Below are positions 31,889 to 37,625 of a DNA stretch of 64,000 bases, piece after piece (the first letter of the stretch is position 1; each line of letters starts with the position of its first letter). A program made the translations under genes and the position numbers. The stretch is from contig NZ_JARJNR010000005.1 of the NCBI RefSeq assembly GCF_030143255.1, positions 186,068 to 250,067 on the forward strand, written 5' to 3'. The notes beneath the pieces were generated by a model. That model saw nothing but the letters and a program-made list of their open reading frames with translations. It had not been told where the DNA came from and did no database searches. This DNA is from Frigidibacter sp. SD6-1 (GTDB taxonomy: Bacteria > Pseudomonadota > Alphaproteobacteria > Rhodobacterales > Rhodobacteraceae).

Positions 31889-33330
31889 TGGCGCGGGCCT
31901 TGATGATCCAGGGCTGCGGCTCGAATGTCGGCAAGTCGATGCTGGTTGCGGGCCTTTGCCGGGCGGCGCGGCGGCGCGGCCTTTCGGTCGCGCCCTTCAA
32001 GCCGCAGAACATGTCGAACAACGCCGCCGTCACGGTGGACGGCGGCGAGATTGGCCGGGCACAGGCGCTGCAGGCGCTTGCTTGCGGGCTGGAGCCGCAT
32101 ACGGACATGAACCCGGTGCTTCTGAAGCCCGAGACCGACGTGGGTGCGCAAGTCGTGGTGCAGGGGCGGCGGCTGACGACCGTCAAGGCGCGGGACTATG
32201 CCATCCTGAAGCCGCAGCTGATGGGCGCGGTTCTTGAAAGCTTCAACCGGCTGAGGGCCGCCCATGATCTGGTCATCGTCGAAGGCGCGGGCAGCCCGGC
32301 CGAGGTGAACCTGCGCGCGGGCGATATCGCCAACATGGGTTTCGCCCGGGCGGCCGATGTGCCGGTCATCCTGACCGGCGACATAGACCGTGGCGGCGTG
32401 ATCGCCCAGATCGTCGGTACCCAGTCGGTGCTGGATCCGGAAGATGCCGCGTTGGTCGCGGGCTTCCTCATCAACAAGTTCCGGGGCGATCCGCGCCTGT
32501 TCGACGATGGCTACCGGCTGATCGAGGACCGTACCGGCTGGCGCGGCTTCGGCGTCCTGCCCTGGTTCGGCGAGGCGGGGAAGCTGCCCGCCGAGGACGC
32601 GCTGGACCTGTCCGGCAGCCGAGGCAGCGGTCTGCATATTGCCTGCCTCGCGCTGTCGCGCATTGCCAATTTCGACGATCTCGATCCGCTGAAGCTGGAA
32701 CCGGGTGTACGTCTGACCATGGTGCGGGCGGGTGCGGTACTGCCCGCCGACGTGGACCTGCTGATCATCCCGGGTTCGAAGTCGACGCGCGGCGATCTGG
32801 CCTTCCTGCGGGCGCAGGGCTGGGACGTGGACATCGCCGCCCATGTCCGGCGCGGTGGCCATGTGCTGGGCATCTGTGGCGGATATCAGATGCTCGGCCG
32901 CCTGATCCGCGACCCGGAGGGCATCGAGGGCGCGGCGGGCGATAGCGAAGGCCTCGGGCTGCTCGATGTCGAAACCGTGATGACCCCCGACAAGCGCCTG
33001 ACCCGCACAAGCGCCCTTCACGCCGCAACGGGCGCGGCAATGGAAGGCTACGAGATCCATATCGGCCGCACCGAGGGGCCCGATCGCGCCCGGCCCTTTG
33101 CCCGTGTGGCGGTCCAGCCCGAAGGCGCGGTCTCGGCCGATGGGCGGATCATGGGTTCCTACCTTCATGGCATGTTCACGGGCGACGCCTTCCGCGCGGC
33201 CTTTCTCGAAAGGCTCGGCGCGCCCTCATCGCTCGGCTATGGGGCCGAAGTCGAGGCGGTTCTGGACAGGCTGGCCGACCATGTCGAGGCGCATCTCGAC
33301 CTGGCGGGCCTTCTTGCGCTGGCGCGCTGA
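31888..33330 (+). CDS. cobQ: Cobyric acid synthase
   Basis: CobQ amidates the b, d, e and g side chains of adenosylcobyrinic acid a,c-diamide. The 480-residue protein has a P-loop-like start [60 protein letters not shown] and the glutaminase cysteine in [20 protein letters not shown]. It is the last cobalamin gene before the mobile element begins 30 nt downstream. Confidence 0.96.
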
Positions 33331-33344
33331 AGCCGTGCTCACCT

Positions 33345-33360
33345 TCTGTCCCGAAATACG
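33345..33360 (+). repeat. Dispersed intergenic repeat, copy 5, left part (interrupted)
   Basis: TTCTGTCCCGAAATACG matches the start of copy 2 and is broken by the transposon. It resumes at 36435 with GAAATACGCCCGCCGGAGGC. The last eight bases (33353-33360) are the target duplication. Confidence 0.6.
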
Positions 33361-33384
33361 CGGCATTATGTATCAATCGCACCA
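33361..33384 (+). repeat. Left terminal inverted repeat
   Basis: 24 bp starting CGGCATTATGTATCAATC and ending GCACCA; pairs with 36411-36434 with a single mismatch (T versus C at position 17). Confidence 0.92.
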
Positions 33385-33418
33385 GCCCGAGGGATGAGCG
33401 ATGATTAGGACGTCGCTG

Positions 33419-34276
33419 CTATGTCGCGGAGTTGCCCTCGTCATCTGCGCCCATCTGCTTGAAGCGCAGTTGTTCGGCGGAACCCATGCTAAGCCTAATT
33501 CTAGTTTCTCTTCTTTTCCCCCAAACGTCCTTGTATGTGATCAGTCCGGAAAACCAGATTGCGTGGGTCCCCTTTTCGATGCCGTCGATGAGCTCTTGGC
33601 TCATCACGATCTGGCTCGCGTAGGGCCAGTGGTATTCGTGGCTAGCTCCAAGCTCTCCGCCGTTCGTGAGGCCGTCATCCATCACGGAAAGGCTTTCATT
33701 CAGCGGTTTTGGTCCGAACGCAATCGTTTGCCTCATGCTAACGCCGTATGCCGGAGTTTGACCGCTATTCTTGACAGACAAGGTGAGCGTCAACTTGTCG
33801 CCAGGGCGCTCCCATTCACACTTCATGGCCTTAACCCCGATGTAAGCCCTTACCTGCTTCATACCAATGTCGCGGGTAACTTCGACCGCAGCGACGGCGG
33901 CGCGGTTGGCCTGCCAGGTCAGCCAAAGCGTGATCAACAGCAAGACCGTACCGATGCCGACGAGGCCTGTGGAGTAGAACGCGTAGTCCCGCATATCTTG
34001 CGTGGCGACGTTCATCTCCTGTGCAGCCGTGTTCATTCCTTGCTGGGCGGCAAGGTCCGCTATCTCCCTTTGGCGGGCTTCTTCTTCGCCGCGTTGGCGG
34101 GCATCGGCGGCGGCATGATCCTCGATAATTTCAACAGGGAAAGGAAGTGGAAGCGCTTGGGATGGGCGTTGCTCCTGCTCGGCTTGCCCCTCTGGTTTTG
34201 TTGCTTTTTCTTCGGCTTGCCCTAACGAGGCAATCAGTCCAAGTGCAACAGCGATGATCCAAGAGCGGAGAGGCAT
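33419..34276 (-). CDS. Passenger protein with signal peptide and one membrane segment
   Basis: A 285-residue protein of unknown function. It has an N-terminal signal peptide (MPLRSWIIAVALGLIASLGQ, A), a charged/glutamine-rich linker that may form a coiled coil (residues 50-95), one membrane helix (STGLVGIGTVLLLITLWLTW, near residue 105-125) and a C-terminal beta-rich domain starting QVRAYIGVKAMKCEW that contains VKNSGQTPAYGVS. Similar TM-plus-QVRAYI proteins occur in alphaproteobacterial mobile regions. It overlaps the upstream DUF6471 gene by 43 nt, so translation is probably coupled. Codon use is AT-richer than the neighbours. Confidence 0.7.
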   Translation of the reverse strand: MPLRSWIIAVALGLIASLGQAEEKATKPEGQAEQEQRPSQALPLPFPVEIIEDHAAADARQRGEEEARQREIADLAAQQGMNTAAQEMNVATQDMRDYAFYSTGLVGIGTVLLLITLWLTWQANRAAVAAVEVTRDIGMKQVRAYIGVKAMKCEWERPGDKLTLTLSVKNSGQTPAYGVSMRQTIAFGPKPLNESLSVMDDGLTNGGELGASHEYHWPYASQIVMSQELIDGIEKGTHAIWFSGLITYKDVWGKRRETRIRLSMGSAEQLRFKQMGADDEGNSAT

Positions 34277-34458
34277 TGCAACAAAAACGCCGCCGTGAAC
34301 TTCCCTCGGGATAGCTTATTGCGGACGTTCACTTCCTTTTCTTCGATTCCCATTGCGGCGAGCTTCTCCACAAGTTGAGCGTATGTCACGCCCTTTCGCT
34401 TTAGCTCCGCCTTCAACAGGTTAGCGGCCTTGGTTTCCCACTCCGTCTGGTCGGGCAT
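34234..34458 (-). CDS. DUF6471 domain protein
   Basis: A 74-residue protein with WETKAANLLKAELKRKGVTY, VEKLAAMGIEEKEVNVRNKL and KFTAAFLLQCLSALG, matching the DUF6471 pattern, which resembles a small helix-turn-helix (Cro-like) fold. Its function is unknown; a DNA-binding regulator of the element is my inference. It is divergent from the transposase; its start codon lies within the ATGTATCAC repeat arm at 34457-34465. Confidence 0.75.
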   Translation of the reverse strand: MPDQTEWETKAANLLKAELKRKGVTYAQLVEKLAAMGIEEKEVNVRNKLSRGKFTAAFLLQCLSALGSSLLHLD

Positions 34459-34553
34459 GTATCACCTGTATAGCAAAAAGTAACGCTTGTGATACATATG
34501 CCCTTGCAAGCAGTACGTCAACGCACTATATCCGATACATACGTAACGGATAT
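34457..34553. promoter_or_regulatory. Divergent control region with TIR-like motifs
   Basis: ATGTATCAC (34457-34465) and GTGATACAT (34489-34497) form perfect 9-bp inverted arms 23 nt apart. A third GATACAT lies at 34534-34540 inside a second inverted repeat, ATATCCG (34528-34534) / CGGATAT (34547-34553). The octamer ATGTATCA is also in both transposon ends, so a single protein could bind ends and promoter. Confidence 0.5.
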
Positions 34554-34560
34554 GATGACA

Positions 34561-35523
34561 ATGGCCCAACATTTCCTTCTCTCAGCCGCCGCCCGGACGC
34601 TCAGCCTTCGCAAGATTTACCGCGATGGCGAGGAAGCGGCCTATGAGACATTCTGCAAGATGCGTTGGGCCGAAACCGATGGCGAGGCCGTTTGCCCCGA
34701 TTGCGGTTGCACCGAAACCTACAAGATCGCCACGCGCCGCAAGTTCAAATGCAAGGCTTGCCTGCGTCAATTCTCAGTCACGTCTGGCACGATCTTCGCC
34801 AGCCGCAAGATGGCCTTTGTCGATCTTCTCGCGGCGATCTGCATCACCGTGAATGCCACCAAGGGTCTGTCCATGTTGCAGCTGAGCCGCGATCTGGATT
34901 GCCAGTACAAGACGGCTTTCGTGCTGGCCCACAAGCTGCGCGAGGCGATGGCGCTTGAAGTGCAGACCGGCGAAGTACTGGACGGGCATGTTGAGATTGA
35001 TGGCGCCTATTTTGGTGGTCACATTCGCCCAGAGAACCTGAAAGAGGATCGCGTTGACCGTCGCCTGAAAGAGCACCAGACGGGCAAGCGCCGCGTCGTC
35101 ATCGTGATGCGCGAGCGTCTTGGCCGCACGCTTCCCAAGGTCGCCATGGCGGAAGCCGAAGGCGTGGCGCTGGTCCATGAGAACGTGGGCCGTATGGCCA
35201 CCCTGTCAGCCGATGAAGCCTCGCATTGGGATATGCTGCACGATGGCTGGCCAGTTGATCGCATCAATCACTCGCTGGCCTACAGCGACCACGGCAAGCA
35301 CACCAACTGGGCGGAAAGCTATTTCTCCCGCCTGCGCCGCATGGTGCAGGGCCAGCATCACCATGTCAGCCCGAAGTACCTGCACCAGTACGCGAACCAA
35401 GCCGCGTGGCTGGAAGATAACCGCCGTACCGACAACGGATCGCTGGCCTATGGGCTGGTGGTGAACGCGATGCAGTCGCCGGTCAGCCGTGCGTGGAAGG
35501 GCTACTGGCAGCGGGCGGCGTGA
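34561..35523 (+). CDS. IS1595-family transposase
   Basis: A 320-residue transposase starting AQHFLLSAAARTLSLRKIYR, the standard N-terminus of one IS1595 subgroup, so the ATG at 34561 is preferred to in-frame GTG/ATG codons upstream. A zinc ribbon is formed by VCPDCGC and FKCKACLRQFSVTSGTIFAS (two CxxC-type pairs). The DDE-type core is suggested by VEIDGAYFGG, SADEASHWDMLHDGWPVDRI and KHTNWAESYFSRLRRMVQGQ. The frame is intact and presumably functional. Confidence 0.92.
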   Translation: MAQHFLLSAAARTLSLRKIYRDGEEAAYETFCKMRWAETDGEAVCPDCGCTETYKIATRRKFKCKACLRQFSVTSGTIFASRKMAFVDLLAAICITVNATKGLSMLQLSRDLDCQYKTAFVLAHKLREAMALEVQTGEVLDGHVEIDGAYFGGHIRPENLKEDRVDRRLKEHQTGKRRVVIVMRERLGRTLPKVAMAEAEGVALVHENVGRMATLSADEASHWDMLHDGWPVDRINHSLAYSDHGKHTNWAESYFSRLRRMVQGQHHHVSPKYLHQYANQAAWLEDNRRTDNGSLAYGLVVNAMQSPVSRAWKGYWQRAA

Positions 35524-35599
35524 TAAGCACAACGGCTTGTATGGGGGGAATCGGGAACACCTAGACTCTGCGGCGTAACATATGATATTGCAAAAAATT

Positions 35600-35630
35600 G
35601 GAGCGGTCAGGGTTGCACCCCTGCCGCTCC
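35600..35630 (+). terminator. Strong hairpin after the transposase
   Basis: GGAGCGG-T-CAGGG / CCCTG-CCGCTCC, a 12-bp stem with one bulged T and loop TTGCAC. Outer bases TTGC (35588-35591) and GCAA (35637-35640) can extend the pairing. It lies about 75 nt past the transposase stop and 115 nt before the Cas2-like start; possible terminator, or a structured leader for the next gene. Confidence 0.5.
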
Positions 35631-35746
35631 GATTTAGCAACCCCGGTCGTCGATGGACCGAAGCAATGTGATCACCCTTGCCTTTTGGCATAGGCTGCCC
35701 GCAGGGTCAAGTCCATCGGCGACCTTCCAACCAAGGAAACGCCAAC

Positions 35747-36025
35747 ATGGCAAACTTCATCGTTACCTATGACCTCAACGGGCCAAATCCGTCTCACAAG
35801 AAAATGGATGAGACCATTTCTCGCGTGGCGGCAAAGTATGGCCGGGTGTTAGAAACAGTATGGTGGCTTGACTACGCAGGCACCGCTGCGGGTCTTCGTG
35901 ATCATCTGAAATCCATTCTTGGGCCAGAGGATCTTCTATTGGTGATCGAGTGTAAGAGTGCGGCATGGACCAAGCTCCTTGTGTCTGATCAAGCATTCAA
36001 AGACGCCTTCAATAAGGCGGCGTAA
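35747..36025 (+). CDS. Cas2-like (SinR-type) small protein
   Basis: A 92-residue protein that starts ANFIVTYDLNGPNPSHKKMD and continues RVLETVWWLDYAGTAAGLRD and LGPEDLLLVIECKSAAWTKL. The order beta1 ending in YDL, a variable loop, a TVW/W strand, LRDxL helix and D-LLV-E strand matches the stand-alone 'SinR' group of the Cas2/VapD ferredoxin-like fold; the aspartate of YDL is where Cas2 nucleases place a metal ligand. ATG at 35747 has AAGGAAACGCC upstream. No CRISPR array or other cas gene is present. Nuclease or toxin activity is unproven. Confidence 0.75.
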   Translation: MANFIVTYDLNGPNPSHKKMDETISRVAAKYGRVLETVWWLDYAGTAAGLRDHLKSILGPEDLLLVIECKSAAWTKLLVSDQAFKDAFNKAA

Positions 36026-36043
36026 AGCCCTCGGCCTGGCCCT

Positions 36044-36376
36044 TCATTGGGCCAGCCACCCTTTCCTATCCCTCCGCACCATCCCCGCCGCTTCAAGCCT
36101 GCGCAACGCCATATAGGCGCGCTGCACCGCCTGCCTGCGGCTGATGCCTGGAACAGCCTCCATTACCCTTTGTGCCGCCTCTGCCGTGGTTTTGGGGCCA
36201 TCAGCCAACGCAGCCAACATCAGCCTTTTGCACTTGCCCCGGCAAAGCGGGCGGTCATACAGCATTCGCGGCAACCGGACCCCACGCATGGCCAGTATCT
36301 GCCGTGCCAGCTCCGCTTGTGGGCCACCCGCCCGGTGAAGCGCCAGTAGCGCGTTATCTATCGTCCTGTCCTGCAT
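36044..36376 (-). CDS. Putative winged-helix passenger protein
   Basis: A 110-residue basic protein. The C-terminal half (KTTAEAAQRVMEAVPGISRR, AYMALRRLEAAGMVRRDRKG) has the look of a winged helix-turn-helix with a beta-wing (MVRRDRKGWLAQ). Cysteines are limited to LCRGKCKR. It is convergent with the Cas2-like gene (18 nt between stops) and starts about 35 nt inside the right transposon end. Its function is unknown; a regulator is an inference. Confidence 0.6.
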   Translation of the reverse strand: MQDRTIDNALLALHRAGGPQAELARQILAMRGVRLPRMLYDRPLCRGKCKRLMLAALADGPKTTAEAAQRVMEAVPGISRRQAVQRAYMALRRLEAAGMVRRDRKGWLAQ

Positions 36377-36410
36377 GGGGGTTTAGTACAGGATTCCAGC
36401 GCGTTATGCT

Positions 36411-36434
36411 TGGTGCGGTTGATACATAATGCCG
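36411..36434 (-). repeat. Right terminal inverted repeat
   Basis: Reverse complement reads CGGCATTATGTATCAACC then GCACCA, matching the left end except one base. Confidence 0.92.
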
Positions 36435-36490
36435 GAAATACGCCCGCCGGAGGCGCCCGAAGGTTCCGCGCGCAGGCGCGGGGTCTGAGA
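36435..36490 (+). repeat. Dispersed intergenic repeat, copy 5, right part
   Basis: GAAATACGCCCGCCGGAGGC continuing into a GC-rich palindromic region (CGCGCAGGCGCG near 36470). The first eight bases are the second copy of the target duplication. Together with 33345-33360 it forms one interrupted repeat. Confidence 0.5.
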
Positions 36491-36524
36491 GACAGGCCTG
36501 GCGCCGCAAGGCGCCGCAATCGGA

Positions 36525-37625
36525 TCAGCGGCTCAAGGCAAAAGCCAGCGCGCCGATCATGTCGGTGCGGCTGACGATGCCGGCCAGGCGGTCGCCCTCG
36601 ACCACGGGCACCGCCTGCTGGCCGCCATCGGCGAGAAGCGCCAGAAGCGGCGCGAGCGGCATGGCCGGACCGGCGGCGCGCAGGTCGGTCCGCATCATCT
36701 CGCGCGCCGTGGCCTCGCCGCCGTGCGGCGCGAGGAGACCCTGCTGCGACAGAAGGCCCAGATAGCGCCCGCTCTCGTCGGTGACCGGCAGGGTCTTGAA
36801 ACCATGGCCGAGGAAGAGCCGCGTGAGGTCGGCAAGGCCGGTGTCCGGCCGGATGCTGATCACGTCGCGCGACATAACATCGGCGGCGGTCAGACCACCG
36901 ACATGGCGCGCGGTCGCCTCTGCCTCGGCCGCGCCGATAAGGCGGGCGAGGTCCTCGGGCCCGATGTTGGCGGCAAGCCGCAGATCGGCGAGAATCCGCC
37001 CCAGATCCTCGGCCGAAAGGCCCAAGCGGCGGTCGGGGGCGCGGTCGCGGGTCTGGTGCGTGCCGGCCTCCGCCGGTTGGCGGAACGGGTATTTCCGGCC
37101 CGTGGCCCGGTTGTAGAGGGCGCCGACGAGCACGAGGCAGGCGGTTGCGGCCGCGACCGGATAGAGGGCGAGGCCGAGCCCGTGGGCCGGATCAGGGTTC
37201 AGCGCCAGAAGCAGAGCCACGGCACCGCCGGGCGGATGCATGGCGCGCGCCGCCATCATCAGCAGGACCGCCGCCGCGACCGACAGGGCGACCGCCGCGG
37301 CCGGATCGAGCCCGAGGGGGGCGATTGCCAGCGCCGCGAGGGCCGACAGGCCATTGCCGACGACCGCCGACCAGGGTTGGGCCAGCGGGCTGTTCGGGAC
37401 GGCGAAGATCAGGAAGGCCGAAGCGCCGAGCGGCGCGAAAAGCACGCCTGCGGGCGACCCGATCCGTCCGGCAAGCAGCAGCGTCAAAAGACCGGTGAGC
37501 AGAAGGCCAAGGCCCGCGCCGATGGCGGCCCGCACCATCTCGGAGCTCTTGGGGCGCGCAAGCGCAGGGCCAAGAGCGCGGCCAAGCGCACGGAGGGAGC
37601 GCAGGTATGACCCTTTGCCGCTCAT
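36525..37625 (-). CDS. HPP-family membrane protein with two CBS domains
   Basis: A 366-residue protein: residues 30-170 carry four to five membrane segments with the HPP signature ARAMHPPGGAVALLLA, and residues 235-365 contain a CBS pair (TAADVMSRDVISIRPDTGLA; AGIVSRTDMIGALAFALSR). HPP proteins are proposed transporters, with nitrite transport shown for some plant and cyanobacterial members; CBS domains suggest nucleotide gating. It overlaps holA by 4 nt, so it is the last gene of leuS-lptE-holA. Confidence 0.85.
   Translation of the reverse strand: MSGKGSYLRSLRALGRALGPALARPKSSEMVRAAIGAGLGLLLTGLLTLLLAGRIGSPAGVLFAPLGASAFLIFAVPNSPLAQPWSAVVGNGLSALAALAIAPLGLDPAAAVALSVAAAVLLMMAARAMHPPGGAVALLLALNPDPAHGLGLALYPVAAATACLVLVGALYNRATGRKYPFRQPAEAGTHQTRDRAPDRRLGLSAEDLGRILADLRLAANIGPEDLARLIGAAEAEATARHVGGLTAADVMSRDVISIRPDTGLADLTRLFLGHGFKTLPVTDESGRYLGLLSQQGLLAPHGGEATAREMMRTDLRAAGPAMPLAPLLALLADGGQQAVPVVEGDRLAGIVSRTDMIGALAFALSR

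Follow-up and report, generated by a model that had tools for sequence, protein, structure and literature searches.

The 64,000-nucleotide (nt) stretch analysed here, referred to as the window, comes from contig NZ_JARJNR010000005.1 of Frigidibacter sp. SD6-1 (positions 186,068 to 250,067, forward strand). Window positions 33361–36434 hold a complete transposon of the IS1595 family with five genes inside. Three of these genes are treated below as the core of the element, and the other two occupy two cargo regions, slot A and slot B. The features are listed here in window coordinates.

33353–33360, no strand: left target duplication GAAATACG, with an exact second copy at 36435–36442
33361–33384, plus strand: left terminal inverted repeat (24 nt; family consensus CGGCCTTATGTATCAAACGCACCAAG)
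33419–34276, minus strand: slot A cargo P0001, a 285-aa protein with no Pfam family above cut-off
34234–34458, minus strand: core gene for DUF6471 (74 aa; Pfam), which probably represses the transposase gene
34459–34551, no strand: divergent promoter/operator region in the gap between the DUF6471 and transposase genes, covarying with DUF6471
34552–35523, plus strand: core gene for the IS1595-family transposase, 323 aa (Pfam, NCBIfam)
35590–35638, plus strand: terminator-like hairpin with an A-rich 5′ side (from the fold)
35643–35724, plus strand: putative leader RNA in which a local hairpin (P2) and a long-range helix of 14 bp overlap, with inner GTGATCAC and GGTCAA
35747–36025, plus strand: slot B cargo P0004, a 92-aa Cas2-like protein, possibly a small nuclease (weak sequence links)
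36044–36376, minus strand: core gene, directed inward from its place next to the right end, for a 110-aa protein provisionally called winged helix (76/76 elements)
36411–36434, minus strand: right terminal inverted repeat (24 nt)
36435–36442, no strand: right target duplication GAAATACG

The boundaries of the element agreed with the original prediction, which had reported 24-bp ends with one mismatch and an exact 8-bp duplication. The arms of the terminal inverted repeat (TIR) at 33361–33384 and 36411–36434 were 96% complementary, with a single mismatch, and GAAATACG stood on both sides. The transposase matched the Pfam domains DDE_Tnp_IS1595 (E 1.2e-36) and Zn_ribbon_IS1595 (E 7e-13), both over the Pfam cut-off, as well as the NCBIfam IS1595 model (E 2.7e-40, 138.5 bits against 75). 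The residues that we take to be catalytic were invariant in eight sequences. A DDE domain, a zinc ribbon, TIRs and an 8-bp target duplication, all marks of the IS1595 family, were thus present, and the predicted complete transposon with an IS1595-type transposase was borne out by its ends, its transposase and its duplication.

A pattern search for the TIR in 394 same-family genomes gave 55 matching places, spread over 30 of them, and the reversed control gave nothing among the matches listed for these genomes; in 380 genomes of the same class outside the family, the pattern had no match. Relatives of the transposase were found in 418 stretches of the collection, the best 80 of which were kept. 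A pair of ends was present in 71 of these 80 and missing from nine, and the consensus of the relatives' ends, CGGCCTTATGTATCAAACGCACCAAG, begins with the same C as the window element. The 8-bp duplication, itself one selection criterion of the end-pair script, was exact in 63 of the 71; it had one mismatch in two and was absent or unreadable in six, including L063 and L103, which are cut at a contig edge. Further copies with the same ends and 8-bp duplications, sought as a check on the original prediction, were therefore found, the ends were conserved in relatives and the searches brought up no relative that has the five genes and lacks the ends.

Some of the matches stood apart from these paired elements. 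Seven end-pattern matches in one genome (G044; contigs C27, C57, C68, C77, C80 and C84) suggested several copies. Single ends whose fetched stretch held no transposase (L042, L045, L048 and L049) may be remnants, larger elements or non-autonomous copies. At the left edge of L109 (L033), a second right end directly adjoins the left end, and two neighbouring insertions may be present.

Gene content was compared in 76 elements, namely the window element, L007, L032, L038, L041 and the 71 paired-end relatives; L041 was counted despite its broken transposase and lack of a duplication. No near-identical pairs over >2 kb occurred among the 76, and codon-usage gene finding, which was weak, was not used for the counts. 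The transposase, DUF6471 and the end-proximal (winged-helix) gene were present in all 76 elements, and the arrangement DUF6471 (minus), transposase (plus), winged helix (minus) was kept in 75, L101 being the exception. Because they were present in every element compared, DUF6471 and the winged-helix gene were counted as core, and to judge from this comparison they behave as core parts and not as passengers. The original prediction had named four passenger genes; this holds for the membrane-type and Cas2-like genes, which are variable cargo, but not for the other two. Its identification of DUF6471 was sound (Pfam, E 1.2e-31). The open frames behind the names "membrane" and "winged-helix" were also confirmed, but neither protein had a Pfam family above cut-off, the helix-turn-helix (HTH) matches of the 36044–36376 protein being at E 0.036 and worse, so that both names are provisional. 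Searches of the winged-helix and DUF6471 proteins against PDB gave nothing significant (best E 0.22, 0.85 and 0.037).

The comparison was extended to six more distant plasmid transposases (44–64% identity), which we chose from the plasmid matches. A homologue of the winged-helix gene accompanied five of the six. Elements of 1.5–1.7 kb in Limimaricola (L174), Rhodovastum (L175) and Skermanella (L177) contained the transposase and this homologue, with no other annotated gene wholly inside; their ends matched at 22/22, 18/22 and 22/22 bases, respectively, in a search that demanded an exact 8-bp duplication, and the Skermanella element splits an oxidoreductase gene. The Ensifer element (L176) was a 3.1-kb form whose winged-helix match was weak (E 0.001) and lay 0.8 kb from the transposase. 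DUF6471 adjoined the transposase in Methylobacterium (L172), which had ends, no exact duplication and the winged-helix gene on the other strand, and in Azospirillum (L173), in which neither a winged-helix gene nor credible ends were found. These six relatives suggest that the winged-helix gene could be the older partner and that DUF6471 and the cargo might have been added later.

The role of DUF6471 was considered through the divergent promoter region, using 63 of the 76 elements; the 13 dropped were L041, L101 and those without a winged-helix protein of 100–170 aa or a MAQHFLLS start. Divergence in the 80 nt before the transposase gene (tnp) followed that of DUF6471 given the transposase (partial Mantel r 0.70, p 0.0005), against 0.05 (p 0.11) for the winged-helix protein. 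By position, the partial correlation with DUF6471 given the transposase was 0.62 at −80 to −41 and 0.74 at −40 to −11, and inside tnp the correlation was 0.23 (nt 1–90), 0.24 (nt 91–300) and −0.04 (nt 700–960). The mean inverted-repeat score of the promoter region in the 63 elements was above that of all 50 shuffled sets; singly, only 7 of the 63 exceeded their own 95% shuffle level. Operator-like repeats common to the elements of one DUF6471 cluster were visible by eye, and a promoter scan reported no consensus promoter at 34459–34551. The density of TIR-core-like matches (≤3 mismatches; 39/76 elements) was 13 times higher in the promoter region than in the rest of the elements, an observation that has no composition control and was left unused. 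Because the promoter region covaries with DUF6471 more than with the transposase, the simplest reading is that DUF6471 probably acts as a repressor on a cognate operator that covers the start of tnp.

The two slots differed from this core in their variability. Slot A, from the left end to DUF6471, had a median length of 890 nt (range 624–2239) in the 76 elements, and slot B, from the transposase to the winged-helix gene, a median of 793 nt. In the window element, slot A carries P0001, the start of whose gene overlaps DUF6471 by 43 nt. By eye, this protein has a signal-like N terminus, one hydrophobic segment and a beta-type C-terminal domain, and relatives of it occupied slot A in 25 of the 76 elements by homology (32 by single linkage). 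Fifty hand-picked slot-B proteins and nine slot-A proteins were run against Pfam, and the labels were then spread by homology over the 76 elements. The families found included, on the toxin-antitoxin side, SocA_Panacea, HicA, HicB-like and RelE with an HTH partner, together with DUF4258 with an HTH partner (the HTH just under the cut-off) and PBECR3 (under the cut-off). Further families were NYN, IrrE-type M78, KilA-N, Bro-N, RhuM, DUF3800, SDH protease, SNase and DUF2335. Toxin or antitoxin families named by Pfam were present in 12 of the 76 elements (SocA_Panacea 8, HicA 2, HicB-like 1, RelE 1), and our own toxin-antitoxin-type label, which adds DUF4258 (2) and PBECR3-type (3), covered 17. 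A wider set of 43 was reached with nuclease-like proteins (Cas2-like, GIY-like, NYN, SNase and DUF3800), KilA/Bro/RhuM, IrrE and one unnamed two-gene cassette. Eleven slot-derived queries compared with the other elements were matched in 7 of 75 in 65 kb of slot B and nowhere in 481 kb of flanking DNA, a biased yardstick in that the queries themselves came from slots, and one with L101 off the slot-B side. The transposases of L089 and L077 were 3% apart and their cargo was different. As read from these comparisons, elements that have this core in common differ in what slots A and B contain, and the slot genes would seem dispensable for movement.

The cargo of the window element is less easily placed. 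The original prediction had proposed a defence, addiction or control module, which suits the family as a whole, given its 17 slot-B regions of toxin-antitoxin type, and is a less secure proposal for this particular cargo, in which neither a recognised antitoxin nor a PADLOC match turned up. Neither P0001 nor P0004 matched a toxin or antitoxin family in Pfam, NCBIfam or PADLOC, and the two do not make up a recognised type II toxin-antitoxin pair.

Other slots held cargo of further kinds. The slot-A protein at L110:3647-4522, which has a relative in L069, matched PADLOC PDC-S42 (E 4.7e-10) and is a candidate phage-defence protein. A 486-aa transposase of another family (DUF772/DDE_Tnp_1) in slot A at L108:2844-4304 is probably a nested insertion. 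Slot B of L067, L085, L103 and L111 held a small protein and a protein of ~140 aa that looked PemK-like by eye; the L067 protein had no Pfam match. ARAGORN called a tRNA-Ala (anticodon tgc) directly after the transposase gene and inside slot B at L076:6067-6139, and a comparable stretch in L083 looked tRNA-like by eye and was not called by ARAGORN.

An ordinary IS1595 transporter with incidental passengers, in which DUF6471 and the winged-helix gene are merely common and the slots are random DNA, could also be considered. IS1595 elements with passengers, including ISNha5 with its transcription regulators, have already been published (PMC11891212, in its accessible part), and 29 of the 76 slot-B cargos carried no label. 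This explanation is nevertheless rather improbable, given that both small genes occurred in 76/76 elements with one arrangement in 75, that a winged-helix homologue accompanied 5/6 distant relatives and that toxin-antitoxin-type families recurred in slot B and were unmatched in the flanks.

Frigidibacter sp. RF13 (G280, L062) bears a sister element at the same cobQ–HPP junction. Identity between the window and RF13 was 84–89% in the flanks, 94.3% in the transposase and 87.2% in the right end with the winged-helix gene; the two slots did not align, nor did most of the DUF6471 block, bar a 152-nt piece at 72%. Slot B of RF13 held a degenerate leader, recognised by eye and missed by the leader model described below, followed by a 36-aa frame with a basic end in place of the Cas2-like gene. 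Either the cargo changed in place or two insertions occurred at one spot. Two insertions would be favoured because the duplications differ, being GAAATACG in the window and GAAATACT in RF13 (each twice), and an in-place change because the right end is syntenic.

The duplications of the relatives indicated an 8-bp target with an A/T-rich centre, roughly S-A-N-A-T-N-T-S. The window element interrupts a repeated sequence, TTCTGTCCCGAAATAYTCCCGCCGGAGGCGCCC, which is seen at window 36435–36530 and the core of which, GAAATAYNCCCGCCGGAGG, had 31 matches at ≤2 mismatches in its own genome, one of them the element's own edge, against one for the control. Matches to the repeat core occurred in all five genomes of the genus, with only two in G775. 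The copies inspected continue across the insertion point without a break and can stand in for an empty site. The insertion between cobQ and HPP claimed by the original prediction was upheld, since in G774 and G776, two of the four congeners, these genes lie ~120 nt apart with no element between them and RF13 has its sister element there. As the uninterrupted junction proposed for comparison, however, G774 and G776 serve only in part, being element-free but also without the target repeat; in G775, the flank of the junction was not found. Separately, L069, L087, L101, L122, L138 and L007 had a similar target (CAGATCTG, CAGATTTG, CAGATGTG) across several species, with similar flanks that by eye form one conserved coding sequence, and L072 and L115 likewise have another one in common.

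The segment of slot B preceding the Cas2-like gene was strongly structured. Positions 35590–35750 folded at −78.4 kcal/mol, compared with −49.0 (sd 3.8) for shuffles (z −7.8). The first hairpin (35590–35638) was unreported by a consensus terminator scan, and a layout like it was seen by eye in relatives. The leader unit that follows spans ~80 nt, in the order AACC, P2, GTGATCAC, inner part, GTCAA and 3′ strand, the last being complementary to the P2 loop and the P2 3′ strand; the long-range helix pairs 35645–35658 with 35711–35724 (14 bp). A sequence-only model, R1, was built from 14 units picked by eye (12 from elements, plus L143 and L144); RNAalifold saw no common pair on the MAFFT alignment, in which the stems were seemingly misaligned. 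In 851 kb including flanks, R1 recovered its 14 training units and one new element, L084 (E 1.8e-9), with the next match among those listed at E 0.12. R1-positive elements numbered 13 of the 76, of which 12 were training rows. Among family genomes, R1 matched at E up to 0.01 in 5 of 149, at the window, the L144 place, L180, L181 and L182; at L180 and L181, the leader is followed by small HTH genes, and no element was found around it. The L182 match lies inside a coding region and was rejected as false. In the class-wide draw, R1 at E up to 0.001 matched the own genome and none of the 288 others, and L145, which is leader-like by eye, had no match when searched with R1. No Rfam 15 covariance model matched window 33300–36500 at E up to 1, and four weak Rfam matches on five related loci all lay away from the leader.

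Covariation in the leader was assessed by dealing the helix partners anew, a statistic in which the relatedness of the sequences remains. The long-range helix scored 24.2 within and 16.2 across sequences, and P2 scored 15.0 within and 12.3 across; neither value was reached in 20,000 permutations, and the two helices show compensation. Of the rows found after training, L084 and L181 retained the long-range helix and L180 (12.8) fell under the cross mean of 15.1, while the training rows L140 (13.6) and L144 (16.6) were no or barely better than the cross mean of 16.2. A start codon with a Shine-Dalgarno-like 4-mer lay 20–41 nt past the leader in 13/13 elements, in a listing that took only starts with such a 4-mer; L063 also has one at +3. 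The genes that follow are mostly unrelated; besides the Cas2-like gene in the window, they encode a zinc ribbon, an HTH protein and a basic peptide, among others. The kinship of the gene after the L116 leader to the window Cas2-like protein is doubtful, and those after the L077, L098 and L130 leaders are presumably GIY-YIG-like, going by a motif of that family (L077 had no Pfam match at 0.01). None of the 17 toxin-antitoxin-type elements was R1-positive (hypergeometric 0.027), a weak exclusion.

The leader and the small gene of slot B might form one RNA-protein unit, such as an RNA-controlled nuclease or an RNA antitoxin, carried as a cassette by several lineages and also outside elements. The start codon 20–41 nt past the leader in the 13 elements, the helix permutation tests and the occurrence of the leader outside elements, before the Cas2-like genes L143 and L144 (both training rows) and the small HTH genes L180 and L181, are consistent with this possibility. 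We hold it only tentatively, since the mostly unrelated following genes argue for a general leader and not a specific pair, and in L063 the zinc ribbon comes first and the Cas2-like gene second. More speculative still is the fuller proposal that the leader represents a new structured-RNA class whose two overlapping helices act as a pseudoknot or switch and which, with its swappable small gene, would make up a mobile RNA-plus-protein cassette in one slot, replacing toxin-antitoxin cargo and controlling a nuclease-like effector. The structured stretch could instead be a bidirectional terminator and DNA recombination site for the exchange of slot-B cassettes, as this stretch is located on the border of the exchanged segment and opens with a terminator-like hairpin. 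We consider this unlikely, because the similar spacing to the next start and the two compensating, overlapping helices suit an RNA leader better.

The designation of P0004 as Cas2-like in the original prediction was supported by matches to the unnamed PHROG 1090 (E 2.5e-13) and to staphylococcal-phage proteins, some annotated Cas2 (30% identity, E 1e-4), and by a YD motif (Y8 D9) invariant in six sequences; it was weakened by the lack of any Pfam or PADLOC match, by NCBIfam results limited to two meaningless weak matches and by non-significant Cas2 profiles. The sequence links to a Cas2-like ferredoxin fold are weak. The conserved aspartate (D9) may correspond to the Cas2 aspartate after the first strand, and a nuclease role is plausible. 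Relatives of P0004 were found in element L063 and in L143, L144 and L145, which had no element ends in the fetched stretch. Three family genomes out of 295 had such a relative, as did 8 class genomes out of 289, some of the latter at E near 7e-4 (own genome included in both counts); there were none in plasmids at 1e-5 and none in viral contigs. L116 and L129 were also tried as Cas2-like ("Cas2-like2") and rejected, having 18–20% identity to P0004 and no YD motif, which leaves that label weak. Derivation of the gene from a CRISPR system, which the Cas2 annotation of some phage homologues might bring to mind, is very improbable given that P0004 has no Pfam or PADLOC match and the other four genes match no Cas family in Pfam, NCBIfam or PADLOC, although no search for cas1 or arrays next to relatives was made.

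Taken together, the comparisons delimit a unit defined by a transposase and matching ends, with an 8-bp duplication, constant DUF6471 and winged-helix genes and varying slots. We therefore favour, with a probability of roughly 0.7, a complete IS1595 cargo transposon with constant ends and core, slots for exchangeable maintenance or defence modules and DUF6471 as its repressor. In such an element, the transposase would act on the element ends, DUF6471 would bind the divergent promoter and repress the transposase, each lineage having its own repressor-operator pair, and the winged-helix protein might aid or regulate transposition. Slot A (membrane-type) and slot B (leader RNA with the Cas2-like protein, possibly a nuclease) would be interchangeable modules for maintenance or defence that help the element to be retained, akin to the toxin-antitoxin cargo of relatives.

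Several observations weigh against this reading. The window element is present in a single copy in its own genome, the element-free congener junctions are imperfect empty sites and the duplications at the site shared with RF13 differ, in keeping with two insertions there as much as with a single one whose cargo was altered. On the cargo side, Pfam gave no family at E up to 0.01 for 24 of the 50 slot-B proteins picked by hand, slot B of 29/76 elements remained without a label and L100 and L079, with transposases 1.9% apart, carry the same cargo. P0004 lacks a recognised antitoxin, and its profile matches to BPSL1038 (Cas2/VapD-type, E 0.14) and to a Cas2 (E 0.32) were non-significant. As for the repressor, the 80 nt before tnp retained a residual correlation with the transposase given DUF6471 (0.14, p 0.025), and movement of both as a single linked block could account for part of the correlation between DUF6471 and the promoter. 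The original prediction recognised the element itself but missed the folded leader, the exchange of cargo and the covariation of the promoter with DUF6471.

If this reading is right, the description of an insertion sequence (IS) with passengers would give way to that of a defined platform with two slots, whose ends are fixed and whose three-gene core probably includes a repressor specific to each lineage. These exchange slots, of up to about 2.2 kb, would sample toxin-antitoxin-type and nuclease-like modules, mostly in Rhodobacteraceae. The element could thus offer a compact system for questions of transposon regulation, addiction-gene carriage and cargo swapping, in which DUF6471 and the winged-helix gene gain testable roles and the leader RNA, with no Rfam match, is a new object for work on structure and function.

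The IS1595 family and its ISNha5-type elements were reportedly treated by Siguier, Gagnevin and Chandler in 2009. ISNha5 ends have the form CGGnnTT, which the ends of the window element fit; the element may belong to that subgroup. In our literature search, which covered few subscription papers, no title matched the DUF6471–transposase–winged-helix core, the two slots, the toxin-antitoxin cargo of these elements or the leader RNA, and no paper on DUF6471 was returned. According to the accessible parts of the sources, ISNha5-type transporter ISs share with the window element an IS1595 transposase with zinc ribbon, an 8-bp duplication and passengers that include regulators (PMC8101967, PMC11891212). 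MTnSag1 and tISCpe8, described as IS1595-type mobilizable elements, likewise combine an IS1595-family transposase, an 8-bp duplication and extra genes with 25-bp ends; they differ in being mobilizable, and a DUF6471/winged-helix core is unmentioned in the accessible text (PMC5704250). Toxin-antitoxin gene pairs have been published inside Tn3-family transposons, where, in the part of the report available, they similarly lie within the transposon at a preferred place and are exchanged between elements (PMC7157771). The Tn3 elements differ in their transposase family, and in the present elements toxin-antitoxin genes are one of several types of slot-B cargo. BPSL1038, reportedly a double-strand DNA endonuclease of the Cas2/VapD type (PMC10491678, accessible part), resembles P0004 as a small protein outside CRISPR with a conserved aspartate near the N terminus and gave its best, non-significant profile match; its SST motif is missing from P0004 by eye. 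The SocA_Panacea domain of Panacea-type toxin-antitoxin systems (PMC8832971, as far as its accessible text goes) lies in slot B of 8/76 elements. In L079 and L089, it is followed by a related small protein, membrane-type by eye, and such systems are absent from the window element itself. In integron gene cassettes, too, the slot for exchange holds small genes that vary, next to a conserved sequence that can fold. Unlike in integrons, the conserved sequence of the window element precedes the gene, and no integrase family was present among the 50 slot-B proteins scanned with Pfam. The element is therefore most likely a variant of the known kind of IS1595 element with passengers, and the leader RNA is the part likeliest to be new.

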